64,000 bases of DNA, taken from assembly GCF_032268605.1 (NCBI RefSeq), contig NZ_CP130318.1:4935501-4999500 (forward strand), read 5' to 3'. This DNA comes from Paenibacillus aurantius. Its GTDB lineage: Bacteria; Bacillota; Bacilli; Paenibacillales; NBRC-103111. Below, one piece after another: positions 38,161 to 53,244 of this stretch. A program made the position numbers and the translations under genes. The notes under the pieces are model-generated. The model worked only from the letters and a program-made list of their open reading frames with translations, did no database searches and was not told where the DNA came from. The first letter of the stretch is position 1; every line of letters begins with the position of its first letter.

Positions 38161-39085
38161 GGCGGTCCCCCCTTTCCTTCCGCTTGCGGGCGGCGAAGGC
38201 TTCCCACGCCCAGCGGAGCAGCACGGAGGCCAGCTGTCCCGGAAACAACCACCACGGCTTCCAGACCCGCCTCCGCGTATAAAGACACCGTCCAATGAGC
38301 CGGGCCGCCTGCCGGGAAGACATCGCCGGCCATCTCCGGTAGGCCTCCGTAGGCAGGATCATCGGCGTCCGTACCAGCGGAAAATAGAGCGAGGTGGCGG
38401 CCACTCCTATCCGGGCGAGCTCCGGACCTGCCGACCGCAGCCAAGTGTCAAAAGCCGCCTTCGATGCCTGGTAAGCCGCCCAATGGGGAACGGGAAGCAG
38501 CAGGACGTTAACCGTCGAGACGCTGACGACCTGCCCCCCGTTCCTCTCAAGCAGCGGAAGAACCGAGAGAAGGAGCCGGACCGGCGCCAGGTAATGAAGG
38601 GCCATCGTGCGGGTGAAATCATGGTAGCGGTCGAGCGACTCCCGGATCGGCCGGCGGATGGAATGACCGGCGTTGCTCACGACGATATCCAGTCCTCCCG
38701 GCAGCTCGTGAAGGTAGGCGAGGAGGCCGGCAAGCGCAGCGGGATCCCGGAGATCCGCCGGGTACACGCTTATGGGGGAGGAGTCGGTCCCGAGCTCCTG
38801 CTGCAGAGCCAGAAGGGCACCCTCCCGCCGGGCGGCCAGAATCAGATGAGCCCCTCTGCCGGCGAGCAGACGGGTCAGGGCTTCACCGATTCCGGAGCTG
38901 GCGCCGGTGATCAGCACCCTTTTGCCATGCAGGGCGCTGGAAAGCCTGTCGCTGTTCAAGGGTGCCGGTGGAAACAAGAGGCGCTCCAACAGCGTTCCAC
39001 CCCAGGAAGCCGGCCTTCGGCCGGGACGCTTTTCCCCTGAAGACCGGTGGTCTTCCTTCCCGGAGGATCCGTTTCGGTCCGTCAT
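38147..39085 (-). CDS. Short-chain dehydrogenase/reductase
   Basis: Protein of 312 residues. After a basic 50-residue leader, the Rossmann motif is RVLITGASSGIGEALTRLLAG, with NAG in VVSNAGHSIRRP and the Ser-Tyr-Lys catalytic set in VSTVNVLLLPVPHWAAYQASKAAF. The C-terminal 40 residues are hydrophobic and then very basic (PWWLFPGQLASVLLRW, ARKRKE), as in membrane-bound lipid reductases. It is translationally coupled to the acyl-CoA synthetase. Together they could reduce or process an acyl-CoA derived lipid (inference). Confidence 0.86.
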   Translation of the reverse strand: MTDRNGSSGKEDHRSSGEKRPGRRPASWGGTLLERLLFPPAPLNSDRLSSALHGKRVLITGASSGIGEALTRLLAGRGAHLILAARREGALLALQQELGTDSSPISVYPADLRDPAALAGLLAYLHELPGGLDIVVSNAGHSIRRPIRESLDRYHDFTRTMALHYLAPVRLLLSVLPLLERNGGQVVSVSTVNVLLLPVPHWAAYQASKAAFDTWLRSAGPELARIGVAATSLYFPLVRTPMILPTEAYRRWPAMSSRQAARLIGRCLYTRRRVWKPWWLFPGQLASVLLRWAWEAFAARKRKERGDRHEGH

Positions 39086-39133
39086 CGGAATCCCTTCCCT
39101 TCCCTTCCCGGCATTCGCGGCTACTGATTCCCC

Positions 39134-39250
39134 TCATTCATCGGACTCCTCCCATTTTTTGGAATACGCCTTGTTCGTCACCCAGATCGTGATCGCGAGA
39201 ATAATCCCAGCCAGAAATAACCCCCAGAATAATGCCATACCAGAAGACAT
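39134..39250 (-). CDS. 38-residue single-pass membrane protein (YtzI-like)
   Basis: Short gene with an excellent AGGAGGTG ribosome binding site six bases before ATG 39250. The protein has one transmembrane helix (MALFWGLFLAGIILAITIW) followed by VTNKAYSKKWEESDE. The TNKAYS-K junction resembles the small Bacillus protein YtzI, whose function is unknown. It lies upstream of, and on the same strand as, the SDR/acyl-CoA synthetase pair, 49 bases away. Confidence 0.7.
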   Translation of the reverse strand: MSSGMALFWGLFLAGIILAITIWVTNKAYSKKWEESDE

Positions 39251-39479
39251 GTGCCCACCTCCTCTAAAGTCAATAAGGGATGCCGAACGCTACCCCTCTC
39301 TATGAATATCTTCTCCGTTTCGGGAGAAGCCGATCAGCCTATAAACCAAAACGGCGTGTTCCCTTTTATGTTACTATAAAACTCCCCCTCTCTAAAGAAA
39401 AAGACAGCCCGCGGGGGCTGCCTTCTTGTCAATTATGGCTAATTTGTGCAGAGGAACGGAGCGGTCTTCAAAGCGGGGG

Positions 39480-40688
39480 TTAGCCGTCCGCACGGCCGGA
39501 CAACCGGTCCAGCGCAATGGCGGCGAGAGCGGCGGCTCCGACCGACAGGCATTCCTCGTGCAGCCGGAATTTCGGATGATGCAGGCCGTAGGCTTCCTTC
39601 GCGTTCTCCTGCGGGCCGGAGCCGAGCCAGAAGAAGCAGCCGGGCACCTGCTCCAGGAAGAGCGAGAAATCCTCGCCCGCCATGGTCGGGTCGGCTTCCA
39701 CGCGCCGCTCCGGTCCGAGCAGCCGGTCCAGTGACGCCTCCGCATGCCCGAGGCAGCGGTCGTCACTCACGAGCACCGGCGTCTGCCGGATATACCGCAG
39801 CTCGGCGCGGCACCGGTAAGCCTCCGCCGTGCCGGCCACTAGCCGCCGCAAGCGCTCTTCCATGCCGGCCTGAACGTCCGGCGAGAACGTCCTCACCGTC
39901 CCGGTCAGCCGGGCCCGGTGAGGGATGACGTTGTTAGCCTCGCCGGCCTGGAAGCTGCCGATGGTGACGACCGCGGGCGCGAAGGGCGAGATCTCCCGGC
40001 TCACCGCCGTCTGGAGGGACATCACGATGGCCGAGGCGGCCACCAGCGGATCAATGCTTTGATCCGGAATGGCGCCGTGGCCCCCGCGTCCCTCCAGCTC
40101 GATCTCGAGCCGGTCGACCGAGCCCATGAGCGCCCCGCGGCGGGTAGCCGTCAGGCCGGCCGCCAGCGTCGGCAGGTTGTGCAGGCCGTAAATCTCATCG
40201 ACGCCGTCCAAGGCGCCGTCGCGGATCATCGCCTTGGCCCCGGCGTTGATTTCCTCCGCCGCCTGGAACAGGAAGCGCACCCGTCCCGCCAAGCGATCCC
40301 GCCGGCTGACGAGCAGGCGGACCGCGCCAAGCAGCATGGACGTGTGAGCGTCATGGCCGCAGGCGTGCATTTTCCCGGAGACACGGGAAGCGAAGGGCAG
40401 GTCCGTTTCCTCCTGGATCGGAAGGGCATCCATGTCGGCCCGGAGGGCGACGGTAGGTCCCGGAAGGGACCCTTCCAGGTCCGCGATCATCCCGTGCCCG
40501 CCGACGCCCGTCCGTACGGTTAACCCTAAGGCGCGCAGCCGCTCCGCCACCTTCGCCGCCGTTTCCGATTCCTCCAGGCTGAGCTCCGGATTCTCATGAA
40601 GCTCCCGGCGGAAAGCCGTCAGCTCTCCGCTTAGAGCTTCCGCTTCCTCCAGGAGCTCCGCCCGAAGCTTATCCTCCACTGTGTTCAT
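39480..40688 (-). CDS. M20-family amidohydrolase (hippurate hydrolase/IAA-amino-acid hydrolase type)
   Basis: Protein of 402 residues from ATG 40688 behind GGGGAGGAACC. Metal-binding motifs are ALRADMDALPIQE, KMHACGHDAHTSMLLG and the EE of LFQAAEEINAGAKAM; MAGEDFSLFLEQVPG closes the site. It removes acyl groups from N-acyl amino acids or related amides. It overlaps the end of sdaAA by 20 bases, so it is part of a serine/amino-acid catabolic operon. Confidence 0.92.
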   Translation of the reverse strand: MNTVEDKLRAELLEEAEALSGELTAFRRELHENPELSLEESETAAKVAERLRALGLTVRTGVGGHGMIADLEGSLPGPTVALRADMDALPIQEETDLPFASRVSGKMHACGHDAHTSMLLGAVRLLVSRRDRLAGRVRFLFQAAEEINAGAKAMIRDGALDGVDEIYGLHNLPTLAAGLTATRRGALMGSVDRLEIELEGRGGHGAIPDQSIDPLVAASAIVMSLQTAVSREISPFAPAVVTIGSFQAGEANNVIPHRARLTGTVRTFSPDVQAGMEERLRRLVAGTAEAYRCRAELRYIRQTPVLVSDDRCLGHAEASLDRLLGPERRVEADPTMAGEDFSLFLEQVPGCFFWLGSGPQENAKEAYGLHHPKFRLHEECLSVGAAALAAIALDRLSGRADG

Positions 40689-41589
40689 CGTTTGGTTCCT
40701 CCCCGGGTTTCTTTGGTTTCCCGTACAGGTCCGACATGATGCGCTGGCCGGTCGGCGTAGCGGCAAGCCCGCCCTTGGCCGTTTCACGGTAGCGCTCTGG
40801 CATGTTGGCGCCAACCTCCAGCATCACCCCGATCACCTCGTCGGACGGGATGGCGCTGCGGATGCCGGCTAAAGCCATGTCGGAAGCGGCAAGCGCCGTC
40901 ACCGAGCCGAAGCCGTTGCGGACGATGCACGGGATCTCGACCAGCCCTCCGACGGGATCGCAGATCAAGCCGAGGGAATTCTTCAGGGCAAGCCCGACGG
41001 CGTGCAGGGCCTGCCGGGGCGTGCCTCCGCGCAGCTCGACGAGAGCGCCGGCCGCCATGGCGATGGCCGAGCCGATCTCGGCCTGGCAGCCTCCCTCCGC
41101 TCCCGAAACGAAGGAGCGGTTGGCGATGACGTAGCCCAGGGCGCCTGCGGTAAACAGCCCTTCCGTCATATGCGTGTCGTCCCAGCCGTACTGCTCCTGC
41201 ATGCTGACGAACACACCCGGAATCACTCCGCAGGAGCCGGCCGTCGGGGTCGCGACGATTCTCCCCATGCTGGCGTTGACCTCCGAAACGGATAGGGCAT
41301 ACGCCATCGCTTTCCCGGCCGGTCCTCCCAGGGAGGAGGCATCGCCCTCGACCAGGGAACGCACCTTCTTGGCGTCATTGCCCGTCAATCCGCTTCGGGA
41401 GGATGTGTCCTGCGTCAGCCCCCGGCTTACGGCTTCCTTCATGACGGCATAGTAGCTGGCCATTTTCGCAAACTCTTCGTCCTCCGACCGGCCGCTCTCC
41501 TTGGCCTGCTCCTCGAGCATAAGGCGGTGAATCGGCTTGCCCTCCTGCTCGCAGAGCCCGATCAGCTCCTCCAGGCTTGTAAACCTCAT
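40669..41589 (-). CDS. sdaAA: L-serine dehydratase, iron-sulfur-dependent, alpha subunit
   Basis: Protein of 306 residues, the normal length. It deaminates serine to pyruvate with SdaAB. The cysteines expected to hold the 4Fe-4S cluster are in TAGSCGVIPGVF, AEGGCQAEIGSA and GLICDPVGGLVEIPCIVRN. It follows sdaAB by 50 bases and overlaps the amidohydrolase, forming a three-gene operon. Confidence 0.95.
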   Translation of the reverse strand: MRFTSLEELIGLCEQEGKPIHRLMLEEQAKESGRSEDEEFAKMASYYAVMKEAVSRGLTQDTSSRSGLTGNDAKKVRSLVEGDASSLGGPAGKAMAYALSVSEVNASMGRIVATPTAGSCGVIPGVFVSMQEQYGWDDTHMTEGLFTAGALGYVIANRSFVSGAEGGCQAEIGSAIAMAAGALVELRGGTPRQALHAVGLALKNSLGLICDPVGGLVEIPCIVRNGFGSVTALAASDMALAGIRSAIPSDEVIGVMLEVGANMPERYRETAKGGLAATPTGQRIMSDLYGKPKKPGEEPNDEHSGG

Positions 41590-41639
41590 TCGTCATCCCC
41601 CGTTTGTTCTTTCGTCTTACCGCCGGCCGTCCGAGAGGG

Positions 41640-42317
41640 TCATCCGGTCAGGTCGACGGTTCTTATCGATGTCACGCCCGGCAGAGCCCGCAGGGCTTCC
41701 ACCAGCTCCTTCTCAAATCGCCCGTCGGCCTCGATAAGCGTCAGCGCCTTGCCGCTCCGGGAGGCGCGGTCCACATCCATGTGCCCAATGTTGAGCGAGC
41801 ATTGGGAGATCAGCCGGGTGATGTCGGCAAGCATCCCGACCCGGTCGTCGTGATAAATGGCAAGCGTGGGATAAGAACAGGAGCAGCGGACGTCGAAGCC
41901 GTCCACTCCCACGATCTCAATGTTCCCGCCTCCGATCGACGTTCCCGTTACGGTCATCGTCCGGTCCCCCGCCGTCATCCGAAGCCGGGCGGTATTCGGA
42001 TGCGGAGCCTCAGCGAAGTCGCCGTGGGCAGGGAAGAATTCAATGTTCACCCCAAGCCCGGCGGCATGCTGCAACGCCTCCGGGATCCGTTCGTCCTGCG
42101 TATCCCAGTCCAGCAGCCCGGCCGCTAGAGCGACATCCGTTCCGTGTCCCCGGTAGGTCTCGGCAAACGAGCGAAAGAGGGTGATTTCCACCCTCTCCGG
42201 CAGCGGCCCGAAAAACTGCCGGGCCGCTCTTCCGATCCGGACGGCGCCGGCCGTATGCGAGCTGGAAGGGCCGACCATATCCGGCCCTATAATCGAGAAC
42301 ACATCTTTAAACCGCAT
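41640..42317 (-). CDS. sdaAB: L-serine dehydratase, iron-sulfur-dependent, beta subunit
   Basis: Protein of 225 residues from ATG 42317 (GTG 42326 is an alternative; the ribosome binding site is weak). It opens with the family signature FKDVFSIIGPDMVGPSSSHTAGAVR, and an ACT domain occupies about residues 145-220 (TLAIYHDDRVGMLADITRLI), where serine binds in related enzymes. First gene of the sdaAB-sdaAA-amidohydrolase operon. Confidence 0.95.
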   Translation of the reverse strand: MRFKDVFSIIGPDMVGPSSSHTAGAVRIGRAARQFFGPLPERVEITLFRSFAETYRGHGTDVALAAGLLDWDTQDERIPEALQHAAGLGVNIEFFPAHGDFAEAPHPNTARLRMTAGDRTMTVTGTSIGGGNIEIVGVDGFDVRCSCSYPTLAIYHDDRVGMLADITRLISQCSLNIGHMDVDRASRSGKALTLIEADGRFEKELVEALRALPGVTSIRTVDLTG

Positions 42318-42343
42318 ACGAACCACCGGTCTTTCTTATCGAA

Positions 42344-43411
42344 TTAAGCCAGCCACTCGGCCAAGCCCGCTTTCACAAACTCGTCGTCGTTCAAATGAGG
42401 ATAATCGCGGTACATCCGGTCGATTTCTTCCTTCTGGCCCGGCGACAGCTCCTCATGAGGATTCAGGCACCAGGTTCCCTTCATGAGACCCTGACGGCGC
42501 AGCACTTCATGAATGCCCGGGATACAGCCGGCGAAACCGTGGGCCGGATCGAAGAAGGCCGCATTCGTGTCCGTCACTTCCACATTCCGCGTCAGCCATT
42601 CGGGATCCAGCTTGCCAGCGCTGCGGGCGGTCTTGATCTCCTCAAGTAGCTCGACCGCTTTGCGGGTCCAAACGGCCCAGTGGCCGAGCAGACCGCCGAC
42701 AATCCGCTTCTCAACCGGCTCCCCGTTTACCTGGAAGCGGTATACGGTCAGCAGATCGTTCACGATGTTATCGTCATTGCCCGTATAGAGGGCGATTTCG
42801 TCGCGCCGGTCGGAATAGCAAACGGCACGTACGACATCGATCGTCTGGTACCGGTTGAACGGCGCCATCTTGATCGCCACGATTCCCGGAATATTCGCGA
42901 ATTCCTTCCAGAAATCGAAGCTGAAAATCTTCCCGCCGACCGACGGCTGCAGGTAGAAGCCAATGACCGGGATCTGTTCGGCGATCCGGGCCGTCCGCTC
43001 CAGAATCTGCGCTTCGGTCCAATCGCCGAGGCCGCCCATGCTGAGCAGCCCTGCATCGTAGCCAAGGCCTGAAGCCGTTTCGGTTTCGGCAAGAGCCTGC
43101 TCCGTTGGACCGCAGATACCCGCTACTTTAAGGAAAGGGCGGTCGATCTGCGCCTTGTCGACTTCCTCCGCCGCAAGGCGGAGAACCTTCTCGAACAGGT
43201 TGATCTTCGGATCGCGGATTTCAAACTGGGTGGAGTGCACGCCGACGGCTACGCCGCCTGCGCCGGAAGCGATATAATAACGGGAGAGCGCCCGCTGGCT
43301 CCGTTCATCCAGCGTGCGGTCCTCGTTAAGAGCGAGAGGATGCGCAGGAATCACGACTCCGTCGTGCAGCGCCCGAAGCTGAGCTTCACTAAGGTTGCGT
43401 TTGGCTGCCAT
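42344..43411 (-). CDS. Dihydrodipicolinate synthase-family aldolase
   Basis: Protein of 355 residues, longer than DapA (about 290). The barrel contains the likely Schiff-base lysine in GIVAIKMAPFNRYQT (about residue 180), and the GTTGE-like motif is replaced by GGVAVGVHSTQFE, so it is not lysine-biosynthetic DapA. It probably cleaves or dehydrates a keto sugar acid. It follows the epimerase gene by three bases, so the two form one catabolic unit. Confidence 0.82.
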   Translation of the reverse strand: MAAKRNLSEAQLRALHDGVVIPAHPLALNEDRTLDERSQRALSRYYIASGAGGVAVGVHSTQFEIRDPKINLFEKVLRLAAEEVDKAQIDRPFLKVAGICGPTEQALAETETASGLGYDAGLLSMGGLGDWTEAQILERTARIAEQIPVIGFYLQPSVGGKIFSFDFWKEFANIPGIVAIKMAPFNRYQTIDVVRAVCYSDRRDEIALYTGNDDNIVNDLLTVYRFQVNGEPVEKRIVGGLLGHWAVWTRKAVELLEEIKTARSAGKLDPEWLTRNVEVTDTNAAFFDPAHGFAGCIPGIHEVLRRQGLMKGTWCLNPHEELSPGQKEEIDRMYRDYPHLNDDEFVKAGLAEWLA

Positions 43412-43414
43412 GAT

Positions 43415-44431
43415 TTAGTATTTCCCCTCTCTTTGCTGGAAATGAGTCGGCTTGTTGATCGTCACGCCTTCATGCTCCACCCATTCCGCCATCCAATCGA
43501 TCATCTGCAGAAGCGATACCGACGGGTAGCCGAACAGCTGCATGCATTTCGAGGCGTTGCTGAGAAGAGCCGTTTCGGCTTCCTGGCCGGTGAACTTCGG
43601 CTCGATGCCAAGGCGTTTGCCTAGCTCCGTTGCCGCATAGCGGACCGAAATGGTCTCCGGACCGGTTACGTTCAGCTTGTTCGCCGGGCTCTCGCAGTGA
43701 AGCAGGGAACGGATCGCAATCTCGTTGGCGTCGCCCTGCCAGATGCAGTTGAAATGACCCATAGCGAGCTCAATCGGCTTGCCTTCTTTAACGGATTTGG
43801 CGAGCTCGAGAAGAACCCCGTAGCGCATGTCGATCGCGTAGTTCAAACGATAGATGAGGACCGGCGTTTCGTAACGGTGGCTGAAGTATTCGAAAACCCG
43901 CTCGCGGCCAAGACAGGATTGCCCGTACTCTCCGACAGGGTTCGGGGTAACCGCCTCCGACGTCCCGCCAAGCGCGACCGGGGAATGAGGATAAACATTG
44001 CCCGAGGAGAAGACCACGATGCGGGAGTTCTTGAACTTCTCCGCTACCCGGCCGGGAAGATAAGCATTCATCGCCCATGTGAAATATTCGCGTCCGGTCG
44101 TTCCGAATTTCGTTCCCGCCATGTAAATGACGTTCTTAACTTCCGGCAGAGCCTGCAGAGAAGCTTCGTCGAGCAGGTCGCAGGCGATCGTCTTCAGCCC
44201 GTAGGCTTCCAGCTCGTCCTTCAGTCCCGCTTCGGAGAAACGGGATACCCCGTAGACCGTCTTCTCGACACCGGCTTCCTTAAGCGCGTTCATGATCAGC
44301 TTCGCGAGGCTCGGCCCCATTTTGCCGCCGACCCCAAGGAGCATGATATCCCCTTCCAGGTTCTTCATATCTTCGATCAAGCGGGCCGACGGCTTCGCCA
44401 TGACCTGTTCCAGCTGCTCCAATGTTCTCAT
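43415..44431 (-). CDS. NAD-dependent epimerase/dehydratase
   Basis: Protein of 338 residues from ATG 44431; the ribosome binding site is 13 bases away, so an upstream non-ATG start is possible. The extended SDR fold opens with DIMLLGVGGKMGPSLAKLIMN, a Rossmann motif, with NVIYMAGTKFGT and VVFSSGNVYPHS later. The usual YxxxK may be YGQSCLGRE, with Lys replaced, so catalysis may differ. Operon partner of the DapA-like gene; a promoter overlapping a 12-bp inverted repeat lies upstream. Confidence 0.8.
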   Translation of the reverse strand: MRTLEQLEQVMAKPSARLIEDMKNLEGDIMLLGVGGKMGPSLAKLIMNALKEAGVEKTVYGVSRFSEAGLKDELEAYGLKTIACDLLDEASLQALPEVKNVIYMAGTKFGTTGREYFTWAMNAYLPGRVAEKFKNSRIVVFSSGNVYPHSPVALGGTSEAVTPNPVGEYGQSCLGRERVFEYFSHRYETPVLIYRLNYAIDMRYGVLLELAKSVKEGKPIELAMGHFNCIWQGDANEIAIRSLLHCESPANKLNVTGPETISVRYAATELGKRLGIEPKFTGQEAETALLSNASKCMQLFGYPSVSLLQMIDWMAEWVEHEGVTINKPTHFQQREGKY

Positions 44432-44566
44432 TTCGCAAATCCAGCTCCCTTCGGTGGTTACAACGATTACGGCCTGCAGCGGCTTTCCGGGCCCCTTTCG
44501 GGCAACGCCGGGATCCTTCATGCGTTTTCGTTCCGGCAGGACCGGGGAACGAATGGCCGTTCTATA

Positions 44567-44620
44567 TCTCCATTCTACTCTGCCCCCGTCATTAAAGACA
44601 AATCTTTAATTTGTCTTTAA
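44567..44620. promoter_or_regulatory. Promoter with overlapping 12-bp inverted repeat
   Basis: The arms TTAAAGACAAAT (44592-44603) and ATTTGTCTTTAA (44609-44620) are perfect complements with a 5-base spacer. On the minus strand TTGTCT from the repeat, 18 bases and TAGAAT form a promoter for the epimerase gene, so a repressor here would block it and could also affect the divergent gene. Confidence 0.65.
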
Positions 44621-44687
44621 ATCGACAATTCAGCTCTGTCTTTATATGCTTCCGTTATCCATCCGACCCGTAAAGGAGGTCTTATTT

Positions 44688-45629
44688 ATGAATCGCTCCT
44701 CTTCTCCGATTGAACGTATAGCCGAACGGCTGGGTATCCCCGGTCTTCTCGACCGGTTAACCGATTCCCTTTCGCCCTCCGATTTAAACACCCTGCTGCT
44801 GGAGCTGTTCCGCAGGAAAACCCGCCGCTCCTCACCCGGTGACCTGCTAAAGCGTTACGACGCCAACCGCTTCGTCCAACCGGCCGGCGCCGATCCGATT
44901 GCTCTGAGGAGGCTGGAGCTGGACTGCCTGGAGCTTGCCGCCCGATACGACTACCTTCCGGTCGAGCTCTCCCCTGTGACCCCTCTCGGCACCTGCTCCC
45001 TTGTAGCGTCGGCCGATCAGAACAAGGTGCTCTCGGCTTTAAGGGGAACGGAAGTCGTGGCGGATGCCACCAACACGCTCGCCCTTCACATCAGCAGCCT
45101 GCTCAAATCCGGCAGGATCGACAACCGGGAAGCCTTCGTCCGCTTCTCGGCCGTCCACCGGCATGTAAGGACCCAGTTCTGGAATAACGCCGCCGGCATG
45201 CTGCCTCACTTCCCCTTATTCGCCATGGTCACTTCCGGAAAAGACAAAGGCTCCTGCTCCTTCGAGACCGAAGCCTTCCAAGAACATATAGACCTATACC
45301 GGGAGCTCTTTCAGGCTTTAGGGGCCGACCATTTCCAAATCGTTCTGATTCCCCGCGGGGGCTATAAGGAATCCGATGGCCTGATGCCTAAGCTGATCGC
45401 CTCGCAGGAGGGCAGACCCTATGACCTATCCGTCCGGGAGGATCCGGAACCCAACTCCTATTACCGGGGCATCCAGTTTAAAGTGGAGGTCCGCCTTCAC
45501 GGCGAAGTGCTTACGATCGGAGACGGCGGTCTGGTGGATTGGAGCCAGCAGCTGCTATCCAACCGCAAGGAACGCATGCTCATCAGCGGAATCGGTTTGG
45601 AACCGCTGATTCCGAAGCCCCCGGCCTGA
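44688..45629 (+). CDS. Orphan protein resembling the HisRS/HisZ class II catalytic core
   Basis: Protein of 313 residues from ATG 44688 behind AAAGGAGG. I recognise no named family. Several stretches parallel histidyl-tRNA synthetase/HisZ: VELSPVTPLGTCS and VVADATNTLAL in the first half, VRFSAVHRHVRTQ where motif 2 would be, and YYRGIQFKVEV then GDGGLVDWSQQLL where HisRS has YYTGIVFE and GGGRYDNL. Motif 3 is weak (ISGIGLEPL), and there is no anticodon-binding domain. A repurposed aminoacyl-adenylating or ligand-binding paralog is possible. It stands alone and diverges from the epimerase operon. Confidence 0.6.
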   Translation: MNRSSSPIERIAERLGIPGLLDRLTDSLSPSDLNTLLLELFRRKTRRSSPGDLLKRYDANRFVQPAGADPIALRRLELDCLELAARYDYLPVELSPVTPLGTCSLVASADQNKVLSALRGTEVVADATNTLALHISSLLKSGRIDNREAFVRFSAVHRHVRTQFWNNAAGMLPHFPLFAMVTSGKDKGSCSFETEAFQEHIDLYRELFQALGADHFQIVLIPRGGYKESDGLMPKLIASQEGRPYDLSVREDPEPNSYYRGIQFKVEVRLHGEVLTIGDGGLVDWSQQLLSNRKERMLISGIGLEPLIPKPPA

Positions 45630-45675
45630 AGCACTGAGCCGGAACGCCTGCCAATTCCCCCTCGCCGTTAAAACC

Positions 45676-45725
45676 AAAAGCCCTGCACCCGGCCGGAATT
45701 CCGGCTTGGACGCAGGGCTTTTTCT
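45676..45725 (+). terminator. Terminator of the HisRS-like gene
   Basis: AAAAGCCCTGC and GCAGGGCTTTTT arms with an inner CCGG stem, followed by a T run. Confidence 0.88.
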
Positions 45726-45793
45726 TAGCGGATCACTTGATAAGGCGGTAACTCGGCAGCACGGCAACTCTGTCTAGGGAGTTGTAGACCGGT

Positions 45794-47152
45794 CTACCGG
45801 AAGGATTCCTCCAGCCGGGCCGCCGCATGATCCTCCAAAAACCGGAGCCGGAACGTCTGCTTGGGACGGCCCTTCGGCACCTTCACATAACCGGACACCT
45901 CCACCAAGCCGTGGTCGATCCACTGGGTCAGCAGGCGGTGGGTGGACCGGACCGTGATATCGAGCACCGCGGCCAGCTCCTGGACCTCGTACTCCAGCTT
46001 GCCGGTGCGGGCGACGCTTGCCATCAGCCGGCTTAAATAAGCCGAGGTCATCCCCGCCTCTTCGGCCGCCTTCAACAGGGCCCCGTCCGTGACGGACAGG
46101 TCATGGTTAAGGGGATCGGCCATTTCGAGCGGACCGATGAGTGTCCGGTCCTCGCGGACGATGAAGCAGGAGCTGCCTCCCGCTTCCTTCGCCTTGCGGA
46201 GGGCCGTGCGGGCATGCGTCCCCGCCTCATTGGCCGAGCGGCCGAAGCCGATGCCCATGCTGAGCGAGAGGCCCAGCGCCTTGCCGACCTCCCGGGCCAG
46301 CGGGATCGTTTTGTAGCCCCCCGTTTCCCGTTCGAAGATGCCCCGCGTCGTAAAAAACAGGTACTCGTCGCCGCCTACGTGGGTCAGGTAGCCCTCCAAC
46401 GACTCGGCATAATCGATAAGCATGCGGTGAATGTCGAGCTTAAACCGCTGGATGTCGTGCTCGGAGCTGCGCAGGCGGATCTGCTTGCTGAAGTCGTCGA
46501 CATTGACCATGCCAACGACGATCTGGGCCTCCTTGCTGCGGCGGGTTTCGGTGGAGAGCAGGGCCCGCTCCAGGGCGACCACGATGTTGGAATCGGTCGG
46601 GACGACCCATTCATGAGGGACGCCCTGCTCCCGGAGCGCCCGCGCCACCTCCGGCTCGGTCGTCAAGGCGGCATGGGCCCCCCCGGACCGGCAGGCCTCC
46701 GCATGGAAGCCCGCCAGTTCGGAGGCCGAAGGATGCGCCTCTCCTTCGAAGAGAACGAAGCGCAGCTCCTTCTCTCCGATCTCCCCCTTCAGCCGGGATA
46801 TCGCCTGCGGCGTGAAGGAGTCCACGGAGAGCAGCAGTTCCCCGGCCGGCAGACGGGACCTTACCCGGTACAGGGCCCGGTAAAGCGCCGTATCCGTCAA
46901 CGGCAGGTATTGAATCGGCTTCGCCGGAGGAAGCTCCTCCTTCAGCCGGCGGTACAGCCCCGGATTGGTAAGCAGAAGCACTTCAATGTCCGGAAGGGCT
47001 TCCTGGGCAATTCGGGTAGCCTCCTCTTCTGAGGAGTAAGGCAGGGCCAGCGGACGGAAGGAAGGAAACGAGGCCGAAATGACCTTCAGCACCTTGCTTA
47101 CCATGGGCTCGGGACCTAGGACGCCGATAGGAATCAAATTATCGGGCGGCAT
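45794..47152 (-). CDS. Transcriptional regulator with GGDEF-like domain and C-terminal winged helix
   Basis: Protein of 452 residues from ATG 47152 behind AGGAGGT. Residues 1-195 look like a periplasmic-sensor/receiver-like alpha-beta region without a signal peptide. Residues 205-345 form a GGDEF-like module: VGMVNVDDFSKQI, then THVGGDEYLFF, resembling degenerate GGDEF or GTP-cyclohydrolase-III folds. The C terminus contains a winged helix (LAAVLDITVRSTHRLLTQWIDHGLVEV). It may couple a nucleotide signal to DNA binding. It has its own promoter and lies downstream of the propeller cluster. Confidence 0.7.
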   Translation of the reverse strand: MPPDNLIPIGVLGPEPMVSKVLKVISASFPSFRPLALPYSSEEEATRIAQEALPDIEVLLLTNPGLYRRLKEELPPAKPIQYLPLTDTALYRALYRVRSRLPAGELLLSVDSFTPQAISRLKGEIGEKELRFVLFEGEAHPSASELAGFHAEACRSGGAHAALTTEPEVARALREQGVPHEWVVPTDSNIVVALERALLSTETRRSKEAQIVVGMVNVDDFSKQIRLRSSEHDIQRFKLDIHRMLIDYAESLEGYLTHVGGDEYLFFTTRGIFERETGGYKTIPLAREVGKALGLSLSMGIGFGRSANEAGTHARTALRKAKEAGGSSCFIVREDRTLIGPLEMADPLNHDLSVTDGALLKAAEEAGMTSAYLSRLMASVARTGKLEYEVQELAAVLDITVRSTHRLLTQWIDHGLVEVSGYVKVPKGRPKQTFRLRFLEDHAAARLEESFR

Positions 47153-47228
47153 GGATAAACCTCCTGGGGTCAGTAGAGAAATCCTTTCCCGATTTAGAGA
47201 CAGGGACTTTAAACCGACTTTTTCCCCC

Positions 47229-47257
47229 ATTATAGCCGCTATGCCCCGGGCCGACAA
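47229..47257 (-). promoter_or_regulatory. SigA promoter of the GGDEF-like regulator
   Basis: On the minus strand TTGTCG (47257-47252) and TATAAT (47234-47229) are spaced by 17 bases. Confidence 0.8.
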
Positions 47258-47281
47258 CCCCGCTTTCCTTCCCCTTCTCTT

Positions 47282-50128
47282 TTAGAAGGGGCCCGTCACG
47301 AGAAAGGCAACGGGAGCCGACTCCACGGTCACTCCGTTCAAGGTAACCCGGACGAAGATTTCCGTCCTTCCCGGATGCTTGGCTATGACCTTTCCGTCCG
47401 GCGTCACCTCGGCCGATTTGGGACGCGAGCTTACGTACTCGATTTTTGCCCCGGACAGCTCGTTCGTGGTGCGCCCTTTTTGCAGCAGGACGTCAAAGCT
47501 CACCTTGGCCTCATCCCCCGGATGAAGAAGGGAAGGAGCATCCGTGGAGAGGGTCACCTTCTCGAGCCCCACCACCAGGCTCGGGTCGCTGTATTTCATC
47601 AGCTCGCTGCCGTATTTGAAGTAGAAGTTGCCGAAGTCATCCTGAGCGAGCTTCTCGGCGTTGCTTTCAAGCAGCACGGTCATTTCCTTGGTCACGGCGT
47701 CGATTTTGATCATTTTGGAAGTGTACGTTTTGTCGGCGACATAGCCGGTATAGATGGTTCCGTACACATTCCCGTCCGTGCCGGTCATCAGCCTCGGGTT
47801 GCTGTGCGAGTAGTCGGCCGTCGGGAACAAGTCTTCGCTGTAGATGATTCGGTCTGCTGCCGGGTCATAGACGAACAGGGCTCCTAGAGCCATGCCCCAC
47901 AGGTTGCCGTCCGGTCCCCAGAACAGGGACGTGACCGCTTTCTTGCCGCTGACCGGAACCCGTTCCGAAAGGATCTGCCCCGTGGACGGATCATACGTTA
48001 CCAGCTTGCCTTCTCCCCCGTTCATCGCCCCCGTGCCCATGTAAAGCAAGCCGTCCCGGTAAACCAGGCTGTTGATGGAATGGTCGGGGACGAGGTTGCG
48101 CTTCACGTCGAAGGTTTTCGTAACCGGGTCGTAGACCGATAAGGCCCCGCCGATTTTGCCCGCAATGGGATAAGAGGCGATGAACAGCTTATTCAGCTCT
48201 TCCACCCCTACCATGGAGACGGGACGATCCTGCTCGTCGCCCAGCTGGCCCAGCCTAAGCGGATTTTGGGGAGCCGACGGGTCGGTCCGGTTCCAGGGCT
48301 CTTTCGGATCGTATTCAAAAATCGTGGCGCGGGGATAAACGCCTAAGTACATTTTGCCGTTCAGGGAGCCGAAGCCTTCCACCTGGCCGATCGAGGGATA
48401 CAGCTTGGTCTCGTCCTTGGTCGGGGAATAGATCCCCATCCCGCCGCCCGAAATAAAGCCGGAGGAGAGCATCTGGCCGTCCACGCTTTTGGCGATGTTG
48501 AACAGCTCTACGAATTGAGGAGGCAGCGGCAGTTCCGGCGTCTCGAGCTTTCCGGTCTCCAGGTTGTAGTAGAAGGCCCGGCCGCCGTTGCCGGCGAGTC
48601 CCACCAGCGTCACGCCCGGATAGTCCGGCGTGTTCAGCTTAACGTATCCGAAGGCGACTCCTGCGCCTTTGACATCAAGGCCAAGAGAGGAATACGTGTC
48701 GGTGGCTGTATTATACGCATGGAGCGACCACTGCTGGCGCCCGTCGGGTAGCGTTTCGTAATACGTGTAGAACACCCTTCCGTCCGGCGAAACCGGGGAG
48801 AAGCCGCGCGTGTTGTATTGCGCGTTGTTCTTGACAATCCAGCTGTTCGCAGCGGGATCATAGACGAACATGACCGGACCCGGGTCGACCCGGACGAACA
48901 GCTTGCCCGCCGTAAATTGAAGATCGTAGACGGACGTTTTGCCGGCAAACTCGGGAGGAGTCAGAGCCGTCTTCTTGCCGGTGGCCAGGTCATAGCGGTA
49001 CAGCTTCGCCACATCCGCCCCGCCGGCGTACAGCACCTTGTGGTCCGGGTCATAAGCGAGACTCCGGAGATGACTTTCCTTCGAGGACGATTTAAAAGAG
49101 GTCAGAATTCTAGATTTGTCCGTCGCGGGATCGTATTCGAACAGCGTCTGCGAATAGCCCGTTCCTCCGTACACCTTGCCGTTCTCGCCGGGCACCAGCA
49201 CCCAGATGACCGTATCGGTCGGCACCGGCTTGCCGATCGTTCGCATGGTGTCCTTCACCGGATCGTACTGGAACAGCGTGCCGTTCGGGGTGCTGCCGAT
49301 ATACACCTTTCCGTCCGATGCCGTGGTAATCGCCCATGCGGCTGTGACGGGACTGCCGTCCAGCGCCACGAGAGGATGCTGGGCCTTCACTTCCTTCGTC
49401 ACGACATCCGAAACGACGAATTGGGCCGGATCTCCCTGGATTACCGTATACATGCTCGCCCGTCCGTCCTTATCGGTGCCGTAGGCCCCGGTCATAAGTG
49501 TCAGGGAGGTGGACTGCGGCCCGAGATTCGTTATGTAGGACTGCTCCTTGCCCACCTTCAGCGAGGCCGCATCCGCATAGTAAACCCCGGTCTTCTCATT
49601 CGGATAATAAAAGGATACCGTTACACGGGCGCCATCCTTCGGAGCGGAAGCGGCCACCCGGAGATCGGTCCACTCGCCCGTTCCGCCCGGAACAAGCCCG
49701 CTGACCACGGAGACCAGCTTGCCCTCCCCGTTATAGAACCGGAGGTCCGCCTTGCCGCCCTCCCCGCTTTCACTCTTGACCTTGGCCGTCAGCTCGACGT
49801 TCACAAACGGAGTCACCGCTACCGCGTCGCTGACCGCGCCGTAGCTGACCGCAGGAGATGGATCCTCCACCCGCAGGCTTCGTTTGCCCTCGGCATAAAC
49901 GGAGGTGCTTACCGTGACCGACGATGCCCCGCCTTCCGGTATCCAGCCGGCCGCTTGCCCGTTCGCTCCGTCCGCCTCGAACCCTCCGTTTACGAGGGAA
50001 TCCAGGGCGGCGGCCTTCGCCGCCGGAAGGCCCGCATTCATCGGCAAGGCCCCAGCCAGCAGAACCGCCGCCAATGAGGCCGACCTCAGCACGGACTTCC
50101 AGCTTCCTCTTCTTCCTTTCATGTCCAT
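47282..50128 (-). CDS. Secreted beta-propeller protein with CBM-like and Big2-like domains
   Basis: Protein of 948 residues from ATG 50128 (50122 also possible). A signal peptide (about residues 8-35, ending AKAAA) is followed by a carbohydrate-binding-like sandwich at about 40-185 (LVNGGFEADGANG, GEWTDLRV). A long propeller region of repeated blades runs from about 195 to 860 (YDPATDKSRI, YDPSTGQILSE, GPDGNLWGMALG), and a Big2-like domain ends the chain (EVTPDGKVIAKHPGRTE). It is exported, probably bound to the wall or substrate. Its propeller aligns with the cytosolic protein encoded upstream. It has its own promoter plus a cre-like site. Confidence 0.82.
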   Translation of the reverse strand: MDMKGRRGSWKSVLRSASLAAVLLAGALPMNAGLPAAKAAALDSLVNGGFEADGANGQAAGWIPEGGASSVTVSTSVYAEGKRSLRVEDPSPAVSYGAVSDAVAVTPFVNVELTAKVKSESGEGGKADLRFYNGEGKLVSVVSGLVPGGTGEWTDLRVAASAPKDGARVTVSFYYPNEKTGVYYADAASLKVGKEQSYITNLGPQSTSLTLMTGAYGTDKDGRASMYTVIQGDPAQFVVSDVVTKEVKAQHPLVALDGSPVTAAWAITTASDGKVYIGSTPNGTLFQYDPVKDTMRTIGKPVPTDTVIWVLVPGENGKVYGGTGYSQTLFEYDPATDKSRILTSFKSSSKESHLRSLAYDPDHKVLYAGGADVAKLYRYDLATGKKTALTPPEFAGKTSVYDLQFTAGKLFVRVDPGPVMFVYDPAANSWIVKNNAQYNTRGFSPVSPDGRVFYTYYETLPDGRQQWSLHAYNTATDTYSSLGLDVKGAGVAFGYVKLNTPDYPGVTLVGLAGNGGRAFYYNLETGKLETPELPLPPQFVELFNIAKSVDGQMLSSGFISGGGMGIYSPTKDETKLYPSIGQVEGFGSLNGKMYLGVYPRATIFEYDPKEPWNRTDPSAPQNPLRLGQLGDEQDRPVSMVGVEELNKLFIASYPIAGKIGGALSVYDPVTKTFDVKRNLVPDHSINSLVYRDGLLYMGTGAMNGGEGKLVTYDPSTGQILSERVPVSGKKAVTSLFWGPDGNLWGMALGALFVYDPAADRIIYSEDLFPTADYSHSNPRLMTGTDGNVYGTIYTGYVADKTYTSKMIKIDAVTKEMTVLLESNAEKLAQDDFGNFYFKYGSELMKYSDPSLVVGLEKVTLSTDAPSLLHPGDEAKVSFDVLLQKGRTTNELSGAKIEYVSSRPKSAEVTPDGKVIAKHPGRTEIFVRVTLNGVTVESAPVAFLVTGPF

Positions 50129-50147
50129 CTCTCCTCCCATGTAGGTG

Positions 50148-50234
50148 GTGCCTTATCCGCGAGGCTGCTCCACTTCTCCTGGTCCTTACAGGTCTGTGCA
50201 GCCTTTCCCGCGAACAAGACGGCCGGGTAAGTCA
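50148..50234. repeat. Palindromic repeat, copy 2 (degenerate right arm)
   Basis: GTGCCTTATCCG at 50148-50159 is identical to the arm consensus of the other copies; the partner CGGGTAAGTC at 50224-50233 is degenerate. It lies in the leader of the secreted propeller gene. Confidence 0.5.
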
Positions 50235-50236
50235 TA

Positions 50237-50250
50237 AGACAGCGCTTACA
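50237..50250 (-). promoter_or_regulatory. cre-like CcpA site
   Basis: TGTAAGCGCTGTCT on the minus strand matches TGWAANCGNTNWCA at 13 of 14 positions. It is about 50 bases downstream of the -10, a roadblock position. Confidence 0.55.
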
Positions 50251-50303
50251 TTTCGCGCGGATGCACGACCGGGGGCTTTCTTGCGCCATTCCGGTCGATT
50301 AGG

Positions 50304-50342
50304 ATTGTAGCACAGGGGGACGAAATAGACAAGTTGTATACA
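50304..50342 (-). promoter_or_regulatory. SigA promoter of the secreted propeller gene with TGTATACA palindrome
   Basis: On the minus strand TTGTCT (50332-50327) and TACAAT (50309-50304) are spaced by 17 bases. The 8-bp palindrome TGTATACA (50335-50342) abuts the -35. Confidence 0.75.
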
Positions 50343-50347
50343 GGTAT

Positions 50348-51388
50348 TTATTGATGGCCTAGCCAGCGGTCCAGGAACGTATAAGCGAGCTCGCGGGCCT
50401 GTCCGGGAAAGTCATGCCCCGCCGCCCCCAGCCAGAATTGGAACGCTTCCGATGCTCCCGCCCGCTTATACAGCGTACCCAGATCCTTCATTCCGGAAAC
50501 GATCGCTTCCGCGTTAGGAAAGATGCGGTCGTCCATTCCGCTCCACATGAACAGCGGAACGGGGGCCGCCAGTGCCGCAATTTCGTGCCATTCGAAGGGA
50601 ACCGTGTCCTTCTGAAGCCCCTTGGTGACAGCCGGAAAATGGGAAAACCACTCCCGCTGCCCCCAGCGGTTCGGCTCCGGGTCGCCTGCGAACATAGCGA
50701 ACCCGCAGGAGGAAACAACCGCCCGGACCCTCTCATCAAGTCCGGCGAGGAACCACCCGTTGTAGCCGCCAAGGGAATGTCCGATGACTCCGATCCGGGC
50801 GGGATCGGCCTCCTCCACCGCCCCGAGCACATCCAGCGCCCGCCGGTGATCGGACAGCATTTTGCCGACGGCCGTCCACTTGGGATACCGCTCATAAAAG
50901 GGAGCCGTCTGGAAAGGCACGGCTCCCGGGTAAATCCGGCTGCCGAAGCCGATGGAATCGGGAGCGAGTACCACGTAGCCCCGCGATACGAGCTCCAGGC
51001 CGTAACGCCGGTTGTCTCTCCCTTCCTTCGTCGCCGTATCGCGGCGCCCGGATTCGGCCGTCGGGTGAAGTGCCAGAATGGCCGGCCGCTTCGTCTTTTC
51101 TCCCGATGAATCCCGAGGGAGCAGAAGATAAGCGCCTATGGTATCTCCGTCGTTCGCCGGATACCGGATGTCCAAGCGGGTATGGTCGGCCTCCTCGACC
51201 TTCCCGATCACTTCGTAGGGCTTTGGACTGGTGCCGGCAGAGGGGGCAATTTCCGGTTCCTCCCCCAACAGCTCCAGCCAGGCCCGCTTAATCCTTTCCC
51301 TCTTCGCGGCCCACTGCTCGTCCGTTTCGATGCCTTGCAGCAGCTGAGGGGGCTGATCCACCTTCAGCTCCGATAACCGGTAGCTCAT
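50348..51388 (-). CDS. Alpha/beta hydrolase (acetyl xylan esterase/dienelactone hydrolase-like)
   Basis: Protein of 346 residues from ATG 51388 behind AAGGAGG. The nucleophile elbow is GVIGHSLGGYNG (Ser about residue 215), the acid is probably the Asp of MWSGMDDRIFPNA, and the His is in LGAAGHDFPGQ. An N-terminal helical region precedes the fold. There is no signal peptide, so it is cytosolic. The ATGA overlap with the upstream propeller gene shows translational coupling; it may de-esterify an imported oligosaccharide or other ester (inference). Confidence 0.85.
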   Translation of the reverse strand: MSYRLSELKVDQPPQLLQGIETDEQWAAKRERIKRAWLELLGEEPEIAPSAGTSPKPYEVIGKVEEADHTRLDIRYPANDGDTIGAYLLLPRDSSGEKTKRPAILALHPTAESGRRDTATKEGRDNRRYGLELVSRGYVVLAPDSIGFGSRIYPGAVPFQTAPFYERYPKWTAVGKMLSDHRRALDVLGAVEEADPARIGVIGHSLGGYNGWFLAGLDERVRAVVSSCGFAMFAGDPEPNRWGQREWFSHFPAVTKGLQKDTVPFEWHEIAALAAPVPLFMWSGMDDRIFPNAEAIVSGMKDLGTLYKRAGASEAFQFWLGAAGHDFPGQARELAYTFLDRWLGHQ

Positions 51389-53244
51389 CTCTCTGTTCCT
51401 CCTTGTTCCAATCGGTATCTCCAAAGCTCGCTTCCCGAGCCGTAATACACATAGCCGTTATGAACGGCCATTCCGCAGGTGGCCGGAGCCGGCAAAGACG
51501 CCAGAAGCTTAACCATCCCGGTTTCGGGCTCCGCCGCAAAGATCCCCCCGCTGAGAAGGCCCAGAATAACCGGACGCCCGGAAAGCTCAGCCGCCACAAG
51601 GCCCTGTCTCACGACCCCTCCCCATGCGGAAAGATCGGTCTGCTGCCGAACCTGTCCCGTATCCGCTTCCATCACGAAATAGACGGAGTCCGAGGTGAGC
51701 CCATGAACAAGGTCGCAGGAATCCGTAACCAGCTGGGAAACCTCCCTTGCCCCCGGCACGGGGTACCAGACGGCAGCCGTCTTCCGGCTTCTCCAATCGA
51801 GCCGGTAAACGGCTCCCTGCCGGGCGGCCGGGACCCCGCCGCCGGGCGTCTCGATGCTGGTCCCCCCGATCACATCCCCGTTCGACAGGGCGGCCAGCGC
51901 GACGGTGCTTTGATGGGGAACCAGGTCCGTATGCGGCAGAAGCTCCACCCTCTCCTCCTCCACCTGGACGATCCCAAGCGATCCGCCTACCGCTCCATAT
52001 CCGGGAAATCCGCCGTAAAGAACATGCCGGCCGTCCGGATGGGTAAGCGCCGCCCGGGGGCGGTGAATAGCATCATTCTCATAGAAAAGGCGCGGGCTTT
52101 CTCCCCGCCCTCTCCCCGGCTCCGGGCCGACCGGCAGGCGGGTATCCAGCTTATACAGCTTCCCGCCCGCATAGGCGGCCCCGAGGAGGACAGGACCTTG
52201 GGCGGCATAGGCGCAAATGTTGCCCCCGCCCCCCTTCTCCAGCACCCGGCCGCCGAAGGATTCCAGAAGGCCCTCCTCGGGTCGATACCGAAAGAGATGC
52301 ATCGGATGGTTGGAGGTGCCGTACAGGCAGCCATCCGGTCCCAGGGCAAGAGGGGAGAGAGCCGTGCCGTTCCCTTCGTAGACAAGGGTAACCGTCCGAG
52401 CCTCTCCCTCCCCTTCGATCACCAGCCGGCTGTCGGCCAGCTGCCAGTCAAGAATCCGGCGGCCGCCGGTCCGCGGGCGGTGCAGCTTGTTGTAGCCCGT
52501 TCCGCCATAGGCGGACGGGGAAACCTCCGCTTCGCTCACCGGGACCGCCTTTCCTTCGGCCAGCCGGAACCATCGCTTCGGCTCTGAGGCCGCCTCCATC
52601 TCCGCTTCGCCTGCGGGCAGGGAGCCATAGACCGCGCCGTCCGCTCCCAGGTGAACCTGGCCGCTTCCCCGGCACGGCGTCCCGCCCCGGAATGTGGACC
52701 GGGCTCCATCTGCGGGCCTATAAGCCGCCAATCCGGCGGCTTCGGTTCCCAGTCCCGCATAAAGCCAGCCATCCGCCCCCGCCGCCAACGTCATGGCATA
52801 CCGGGAACGGTCATCCAGCCGCCCCACCCGAAGACAAGTTCCCGTCTTCGGGTTCCAGCCGATCAGCCGGCAGCCCGGGTAAGTCGTGGCGTACACGGTG
52901 CCATCCGGTCCCTCGGCAAAGGCGAAGCCAACGATTTCCTCTTCCGGCTCCGGCCGGAACCAGGCTAGAAACTCTCCCTGCCAAGGATCGAGAATCATCA
53001 GCAGGGGCCCCGCTCCCGTCAGGAAGAGCCCGGATTCCGTGCTGTGAGAAGCAAAAGGATAATCGCAAAGTCCTTCCGGGAAAGGAACCTGCCGGCATTC
53101 CCCCGTCTCCGGATTCACGATCAGCACGTAACCGCGGGCCGCCAGCACTACCCTTTCTTCCCCGCTGCCGTTCCGGCAGACAGCGCCCGAGCGGGTTTCA
53201 TCGGCCCGCACCGGGATTCCCAAGCATTCCAATCGTTCCGTCAT
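51385..53244 (-). CDS. Cytosolic beta-propeller-like protein, paralog of the secreted one
   Basis: Protein of 619 residues without signal peptide. It consists of repeated propeller-blade units such as GPDGTVYATTYPGCRLIGWNP, LGADGAVYGSLPAGE, LGPDGCLYGTSNHPMHLFRY and HNGYVYYGSGSELWRYRL. The last 230 residues align in order with the secreted propeller protein: GGSLGIV, PHQSTVALAAL, GAVYRLD, GSELWRY versus GGALSVY, DHSINSLVY, GKLVTYD, GSELMKY. A promoter TTGACA-17-TACCAT and a possible folded leader precede it. The substrate is unknown. Confidence 0.8.
   Translation of the reverse strand: MTERLECLGIPVRADETRSGAVCRNGSGEERVVLAARGYVLIVNPETGECRQVPFPEGLCDYPFASHSTESGLFLTGAGPLLMILDPWQGEFLAWFRPEPEEEIVGFAFAEGPDGTVYATTYPGCRLIGWNPKTGTCLRVGRLDDRSRYAMTLAAGADGWLYAGLGTEAAGLAAYRPADGARSTFRGGTPCRGSGQVHLGADGAVYGSLPAGEAEMEAASEPKRWFRLAEGKAVPVSEAEVSPSAYGGTGYNKLHRPRTGGRRILDWQLADSRLVIEGEGEARTVTLVYEGNGTALSPLALGPDGCLYGTSNHPMHLFRYRPEEGLLESFGGRVLEKGGGGNICAYAAQGPVLLGAAYAGGKLYKLDTRLPVGPEPGRGRGESPRLFYENDAIHRPRAALTHPDGRHVLYGGFPGYGAVGGSLGIVQVEEERVELLPHTDLVPHQSTVALAALSNGDVIGGTSIETPGGGVPAARQGAVYRLDWRSRKTAAVWYPVPGAREVSQLVTDSCDLVHGLTSDSVYFVMEADTGQVRQQTDLSAWGGVVRQGLVAAELSGRPVILGLLSGGIFAAEPETGMVKLLASLPAPATCGMAVHNGYVYYGSGSELWRYRLEQGGTER

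Follow-up and report, generated by a model that had tools for sequence, protein, structure and literature searches.

What is the function of a protein that has the core of a histidyl-tRNA synthetase (HisRS), ends where the anticodon-binding domain should begin, and is encoded away from any histidine gene? This question is raised by a gene of Paenibacillus aurantius located on the forward strand at 44688-45629 of the window, that is, of the whole stretch of 64,000 nucleotides that was analysed (contig NZ_CP130318.1, positions 4,935,501 to 4,999,500). An earlier note, made from the sequence of this stretch, had described the product as an orphan class II paralog and proposed that it may be an undescribed enzyme or sensor. 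Among the functional synthetase paralogs tabulated in a review of the subject, HisZ is the only one that derives from HisRS, and the same review states that most duplicated synthetase genes have yet to be characterised (PMC9437257). The predicted structures and alignments described below show that the protein belongs to an unnamed family, formed by a class II core of the HisRS/HisZ type preceded by an N-terminal helical stretch and without an anticodon domain. A description of this family was not found in the titles and abstract starts of the open-access literature searched.

The gene and the predicted fold of its product

The reading frame of 313 codons, supported by the family alignment and the AlphaFold2 model, starts with the ATG at 44688, preceded by AAAGGAGG, and its stop codon ends at 45629, both as read from the sequence. 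A strong ribosome-binding site, AAAGGAGGT, is located at 44672-44680 on the same strand. The gene is solitary: it diverges from 43415-44521 and converges with 45794-47257. In the interval that separates it from the latter, an inverted repeat read by eye (AAAGCCCTGC...GCAGGGCTTT, 45676-45723, strand not assigned) is a probable terminator shared by the two convergent genes; the automated repeat scan, with a loop limit of 8, did not list it. None of the three window neighbours tested with Pfam is a his gene, and together with the wider neighbourhood survey this bears out the description of the gene as an orphan outside the his operon.

The neighbours themselves have some features of their own. 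On the minus strand, 42344-44521 comprises an aldolase of the DHDPS family (PF00701) and the gene just upstream of it; the tested part of the latter, 43415-44431, had no Pfam match, and we take it to read like an NAD-dependent epimerase. The convergent gene (45794-47257, minus strand) encodes a degenerate GGDEF-like domain (30.1 bits against a cut-off of 30 for a GdpP-type model) followed by a weak match to a Crp-type winged helix (20.8 bits against 27), an unusual architecture for a regulator.

The family was assembled from a scan of genome contigs that gave 146 relatives, 80 of them among the matches listed. Seventy of these 80 and the window protein make up the alignment of 71 rows. The same-species copy (L032) and the truncated or stop-bearing members L039, L065, L090, L095 and L103 were left out of it, as were, without a strict rule, L059 (a long C-terminus) and L066, L071 and L084 (taken as near-duplicates); L068, whose sole stop is at the end of the match, was kept. 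A larger alignment of 78 rows adds L031, L186, L189-L192 and L194.

With the 71 rows as input, the AlphaFold2 model of the window protein reached a pLDDT of 89.8 and a pTM of 0.87, and the top 20 rows of a Foldseek search of the PDB with this model were all HisRS (best E 6e-14). Structural alignment with VIA-align gave a Z of 23.2 with HisRS (4e51_A, 2.8 Å over 236 residues), 21.9 with HisZ (6fua_A, 3.3 Å over 229 residues) and 21.7 with ThrRS (8h9c, 2.8 Å over 245 residues). The model of a second member, L099 (pLDDT 91.5, pTM 0.89), gave 23.4 with HisRS (5e3i_B, 3.0 Å, 240 residues), 22.7 with HisZ (6fua_A, 3.1 Å, 230 residues) and 22.4 with ThrRS (7cbg_A, 2.7 Å, 243 residues); in its structure list HisZ and HisRS are tied, with ThrRS one unit behind. 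A confident different fold, or a model without the class II sheet, was looked for, and both predicted models contain the antiparallel sheet characteristic of class II. The models thus confirm the window protein, at the level of predicted structure, as the core of a class II aminoacyl-tRNA synthetase.

Two features set this core apart at its ends. The protein finishes 7 residues after the position of the motif-3 arginine, and for this reason it has no C-terminal anticodon-binding domain; at 313 residues, against 416 for the HisRS of the same genome, it is indeed the short, domainless form that had been proposed. At the other end, residues 1-50 (44688-44837) form a helical stretch, according to the DSSP assignment of the model and the VIA alignments, that is outside the HisRS match and is a further difference from HisRS: the best VIA alignments begin at about model residue 51 and leave out the N-terminal helices (residues 7-46). 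Within this stretch Leu36, Leu37, Leu38 and Phe41 are at least 90% conserved in the 71-member alignment.

Kinship with HisRS and HisZ and the remodelled active site

The relationship is much less evident in the sequence. Comparison of profiles matched the family with HisZ from motif 1 to motif 2 (E 1e-4) and with HisRS from the tyrosine pair to motif 3 (E 0.011), and found no match with ThrRS, SerRS or ProRS (E 0.24-0.66). Measured against 11 decoy families (lowest E 0.014) and a reversed query (E 0.069), the HisZ match is clear of the decoys, whereas that with HisRS is barely better than the best of them. In local mode a combined HisRS and HisZ profile gave E 0.0039 with a probability of 8.6%; in global mode the alignment was not sensible. 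Given this weak signal, the main support for the kinship with HisRS and HisZ is the predicted structure. The ThrRS catalytic core has a similar fold, but no profile match above the decoys and an identity of about 11%.

Database models add little. The window protein alone is not near the cut-off of any Pfam family, has no NCBIfam or PHROG match and does not match PF13393 (tRNA-synt_His); a sequence search of the PDB found nothing for it or for a 22-member profile. At E ≤ 0.01, PF13393 picks up 2 of the 71 members, the better of them at 1.2e-4. The HisZ model TIGR00443 does not match the window protein, and its best match among the 71, L111 (E 1.9e-4, 20.6 bits), is far below the cut-off of 271.65. 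The model of SrmL, a mystery ligase related to PheS (NF051887, cut-off 300 bits), matches 3 of the 71 at E ≤ 0.01; L107, the one of the 71 with the lowest E, has the best score, 22.9 bits at residues 233-312. The likeness is weak and local, confined to the final quarter of the sequence, and the window protein itself does not match. DUF6718, GerPE, DUF5748, thrC, GntI and small_SR7P gave weak matches, below the cut-off wherever one was shown, and were discarded. In these profile searches the family is without any Pfam or NCBIfam model that reaches its cut-off.

The genome of the window has three PF13393 genes elsewhere, which we read as encoding HisRS, HisZ and, in the case of L114, a paralog that resembles HisRS. 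Since the genome has its own HisRS and its own HisZ, the housekeeping roles are already covered, and the window protein is neither of the two. L114 (C1:5592831-5593769, minus strand; 435 residues, 125.8 bits) is itself unusual: Asp takes the place of both E83 and E131, Gly that of the motif-2 Glu, Phe that of Y263 and Ser that of the motif-3 Arg; three PF13393 genes are also present in three other genomes of 20.

The positions of the site were placed by profile alignment to HisRS and HisZ and compared with 18 HisZ and with a HisRS set of 12, composed of 11 HisRS and the HisRS-like L114. All the deviations in that set come from L114, apart from one in the HisRS of the window genome, which has Leu in place of Phe. 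The names HisRS and HisZ were assigned according to whether R259 is kept or lost and to a neighbouring hisD, a gene that we take to be present beside one of the HisZ sequences. The three stretches on which the first description was based, HRHVRTQ, YYRGIQF and GDGGLVDW, were all found as quoted, and the motif order that they imply is upheld by the structure search and the profile comparison.

Thirteen residues are invariant in the 78 members: P96, R119, E122, D126, N129, R161, F175, E193, Y258, Y259, D279, G281 and W285. In ADATN (residues 125-129, 45060-45074), the counterpart of the LRPEGT of HisRS with its E83 and T85, D126 occupies the site of E83, where 17 of the 18 HisZ also have Asp, and T128 that of T85 (Thr in 68 members, Ser in 10). 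Motif 2 is HRHVRTQ (residues 157-163, 45156-45176), in which R158, the tweezer arginine at HisRS R113, is Arg in 76 of the 78, R161 is one of the invariant residues, and the motif-2 Glu is replaced by Val, as it is by Val, Ile, Leu, Thr or Ala throughout the family. The second strand of the motif, HFPLFAMV (residues 174-181, 45207-45230), is set in register by F175, which the profile alignment places at the Phe of the same strand in HisRS. In YYRGIQF (residues 258-264, 45459-45479), Y258 and Y259 correspond to Y263 and Y264 of HisRS, and R259 has no counterpart. GDGGLVDW (residues 278-285, 45519-45542) stands in the place of the HisRS GGGRYD and contains the invariant D279, G281 and W285.

What is kept from HisRS is therefore the class II fold, the order of the motifs, the motif-2 Arg and the Phe that follows it, the Thr of LRPEGT and the Tyr-Tyr pair, whereas Q127, E131, R259, E270, R287 and, in the window protein, the motif-3 Arg are replaced. 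Nine charged residues, E83, R113, E131, R259, E270, R287, D13, E47 and D141, are named as conserved in HisRS (PMC8558854); of the six of these that could be placed, the family keeps R113 and an acid at E83, and has other residues at E131, R259, E270 and R287, the last two being located by the combined HisRS and HisZ profile alignment only. The counterparts of Q127 and E131 are L177 and V181, positions at which Gln and Glu are present in all 18 HisZ and all 11 HisRS. By this alignment, the histidine-reading positions Q127, E131 and R259 (E. coli HisRS numbering) are gone. HisZ resembles the family in its fold, in the Asp at the E83 site, in having neither the motif-2 Glu nor R259, and in being the best profile match, but differs in that it keeps Q127, E131 and the motif-3 Arg (18 of 18 each).

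Motif 3 is the most altered element. The motif-2 and motif-3 arginines are described as absolutely conserved in class II synthetases (PMC8821087). The window protein has KERMLISGIGLEPLI in this place (residues 294-308, 45567-45611) and reads GLEP instead of GLDR or GLER, with Pro306 at the position of the arginine, which is present in 56 of the 78 members, L099 among them, and absent from 22. The loss is not unique to the family, as Ser stands at this position in the HisRS-like L114, while the 11 HisRS and the 18 HisZ keep the Arg. On a tree built without the columns concerned, it changed at least seven times. Lys265 was considered as a compensation, since it is found in 17 of the 22 members without the Arg against 14 of the 56 with it, and was not supported by an independent-pairs test on the tree, which was underpowered; basic residues at 139 and 217 fared likewise, with the same lack of power. 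The absence of this Arg from 22 members and of the motif-2 Glu from all 78 makes canonical ATP-dependent activation doubtful, at least in those 22 copies, and nothing else argues as strongly as the loss in motif 3 against activation of the ordinary kind, at least in the copies without the Arg. The motifs of the first description, motif 2, the Tyr pair and GDGG, stand; it had missed the loss of the motif-3 Arg, and has to be corrected in that the ATP-side motif 3 is degenerate here and the residues that read histidine are absent.

Distribution, selection and gene neighbours

The original description is right as to the HisRS/HisZ-type core of a class II paralog; this is not, however, a single odd gene, but an apparently mobile family present in several phyla. 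The relatives among the 80 listed belong to Paenibacillus, Cohnella, Neobacillus, Metabacillus, Fictibacillus and Clostridia, as well as to Larkinella, Spirosoma, Pedobacter, Limnobaculum, Brucepastera, Peterkaempfera, a metagenome-assembled genome (MAG) of Methanosarcina and others, and one more member, L031, is carried by a conjugative plasmid of Chroococcidiopsis. The phyla are Bacillota, Bacteroidota and at least four more: Pseudomonadota, Spirochaetota, Actinomycetota and, on the plasmid, Cyanobacteriota. Even samples gave 6 of 395 genomes for Bacteroidota (the Larkinella genome G119 counted) and 2 of 398 for Bacillota (the window genome counted). Within the bacterial family of the window organism, matches including fragments were found in 26 of 104 whole genomes and were full length in 23, a tally that includes the window genome, one genome of the same species and G088, which has an in-frame TGA. 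Each of the eight genomes or records searched for copy number had one match. A viral origin was considered and rejected: the viral-contig scan matched 55 stretches, none of them a relative, and no phage record matched L099.

A quick tree, with SH-aLRT support only and a long-branch warning, places Limnobaculum (Pseudomonadota), Brucepastera (Spirochaetota), Geosporobacter, Clostridia MAGs and Paenibacillus together in one starred clade of short branches, and pairs the Methanosarcina MAG with Paenibacillus lautus. The MAG rows may be binning errors; the records of Geosporobacter and Brucepastera are titled complete chromosomes. Such clades across phyla indicate, on the basis of this tree, horizontal transfer of the family between phyla, and the family is patchy, rare in the even samples and apparently mobile. 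The plasmid copy (pCHRO.01, 218978-239895) is situated among GFA, VOC, YciI and DUF1579 genes, in a stretch that also contains an IscB gene and a transposase, a cargo-like setting.

The gene is under strong purifying selection. Between the window gene and its same-species copy dN is 0.012 and dS 0.086 (19 synonymous and 7 non-synonymous codon differences), and of ten further pairs nine have a dN/dS of about 0.08-0.16, dS not being estimable in the tenth. Intact members have some 305-345 residues. In Cohnella and Paenibacillus there are also broken or truncated ones (L090, L095, L103, the pieces on contig 46 of G045 and the G088 copy with its TGA), and an intact and a broken copy occur together in G045 and in Cohnella luojiensis (L056 intact, L090 broken). 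The broken sequences suggest that the gene is dispensable and sometimes decays.

The neighbourhood survey covered 81 loci with a simple ORF caller, and ten proteins encoded beside the window gene or beside relatives were annotated by Pfam. The flanking genes differ from locus to locus and the contexts are mostly those of a single gene; what departs from this pattern is a GNAT acetyltransferase (Acetyltransf_3 of Pfam, about 90 bits with a cut-off of 25.4). It is directly upstream in six Larkinella loci, with 4-bp overlaps, in one Pedobacter locus and in L189, and in these three groups an AraC-type gene follows the family gene (that of L081 has HTH_18 above and DUF6597 below the cut-off). In Limnobaculum, Geosporobacter and UBA945 it is directly downstream, and a Crp-like gene is close by. 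Tight adjacency on the same strand with one GNAT cluster was found in 10 of the 81 loci and also in L189; in 69 of the 81, including the window, the GNAT of that cluster is not the immediate neighbour. When the Larkinella knui GNAT was compared with 10 genomes, the adjacent gene was the best match in all 5 that have the adjacency, and in the other 5 the best match was elsewhere. In the window genome the Geosporobacter GNAT has only weaker relatives (best E 1.2e-15), and all of these are away from the gene. These data suggest that the GNAT-family gene is functionally linked in some lineages; it cannot be a requirement in all.

As for regulators, a Crp-like protein with a cyclic-nucleotide-binding domain is encoded near the gene at four loci (L098 9507-10121, L099 9509-10147, L102 9109-9732 and L104 242-886), and its presence in two phyla, Pseudomonadota and Bacillota, suggests that the regulator moves along with the cassette. 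Neither a T-box, which could have pointed to the amino acid, nor any other RNA leader was found at the gene in 17 loci or in the window at 38000-52000, and the window has no tRNA gene. The leader scans detected three riboswitches and one Trp leader, none at the family gene; the riboswitches are in the flanks of L052 (531-627) and L053 (6369-6571 and 9383-9533) and are of the guanidine-I, cobalamin and c-di-AMP types. The PADLOC defence library gave nothing relevant among the 71 members; its sole match, to a helicase model in 3 of them with E 0.0013 at best, was taken as chance.

Possible functions of the family

A charged set that is new and strictly conserved favours chemistry or tight recognition over decay. 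The invariant D126, F175, Y258 and Y259 fall by alignment on site positions of HisRS, as does R158, and the conserved residues would suit an amino-acid-like ligand beside a nucleotide or adenylate. On these grounds we favour, with a probability of somewhat under one half (about 0.45), an enzyme independent of tRNA that acts on an amino-acid-like acid other than histidine. The ancestral pocket would still hold the amino-acid-like ligand, with its amino group at D126 and T128 and beside the Tyr pair 258/259, while a nucleotide or adenylate would be held by R158, F175 and perhaps R161. The protein would work without tRNA to activate or process the acid, which it would then pass to a small-molecule or protein acceptor, and the gene would be carried as a self-contained accessory trait, probably with the GNAT-family N-acetyltransferase in the same pathway in some lineages. 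Synthetase cores outside tRNA charging are also found in the aa:CP ligases, AS-A and PoxA, which derive, according to the review cited above, from other synthetases (PMC9437257).

The enzyme is ranked ahead of a catalytically dead receptor similar to HisZ, which would bind an amino-acid-like molecule and regulate a partner protein or enzyme. This is a possible, less probable reading: the three changes in common with HisZ (the lost motif-2 Glu, the lost R259 and the Asp at the E83 site), the 22 members without the motif-3 Arg, the profile match with HisZ and the AraC-type genes that follow the family gene in Larkinella, Pedobacter and L189 all argue for it, but no partner gene recurs throughout the family, HisZ itself retains the motif-3 Arg, and a lone gene that apparently moves between phyla fits poorly with the subunit of one host enzyme. 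Next in the ranking, and unlikely, is detoxification of, or immunity to, aminoacyl-nucleotide or synthetase-targeting antibiotics, in which the core would bind or break the adenylate and the GNAT would block the amino group. RimL and MccE are GNATs concerned in microcin C resistance. Acetylation is named as one way in which resistance to microcin C analogues arises (PMC3817062), and the GNAT neighbour in two arrangements and the rare, apparently mobile distribution, conjugative plasmid included, are consistent with this role; against it, none of the ten annotated neighbour proteins was recognised as serving the biosynthesis or transport of an antibiotic, most loci, that of the window included, do not have that GNAT adjoining, and PADLOC offered no relevant match. 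A broader proposal appears doubtful as a whole: that these are HisRS-derived enzymes which have lost the histidine pocket in all members and one arm of the arginine tweezers in many, have built a new invariant site (R119, E122, D126, N129, R161, E193, D279, W285), spread between phyla as a cassette of one gene or of two with the GNAT, and would have an amino-acid conjugate as substrate, whether aminoacyl-adenylate-like or of another type, for instance so as to confer resistance to synthetase-targeting natural products.

An enzyme that modifies or charges tRNA and recognises it in some other way, like Glu-Q-RS among the class I proteins, is improbable. The predicted core is intact as a fold, and the N-terminal helices could, speculatively, contact RNA; on the other side, there is no anticodon domain, no RNA leader at the loci scanned and no tRNA gene in the window, and the charged residues E131, R259, E270 and R287 of HisRS are not kept. 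That the family is a decaying, non-functional remnant of a synthetase is very improbable, despite the lost motif-3 Arg and the truncated or stop-bearing members (L090, the G045 pieces, G088): it is largely refuted by the selection test, with dN/dS at about 0.08-0.16, and runs counter to the 13 residues invariant over several phyla and to the window gene itself, whose frame and ribosome-binding site are intact. Taken together, the structure search, the profile comparison and the neighbourhood survey leave the initial idea of an undescribed enzyme or sensor standing, with the tRNA-independent enzyme as the favoured form of it.

The family would be a second one of HisRS-type paralogs, beside HisZ (compare the table in PMC9437257). 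Its conserved residues provide a short list of mutants, the small size of the core should facilitate ligand screening and crystallography, and the family as a whole is a test case for how much of motif 3 a class II core can give up while it stays under selection.
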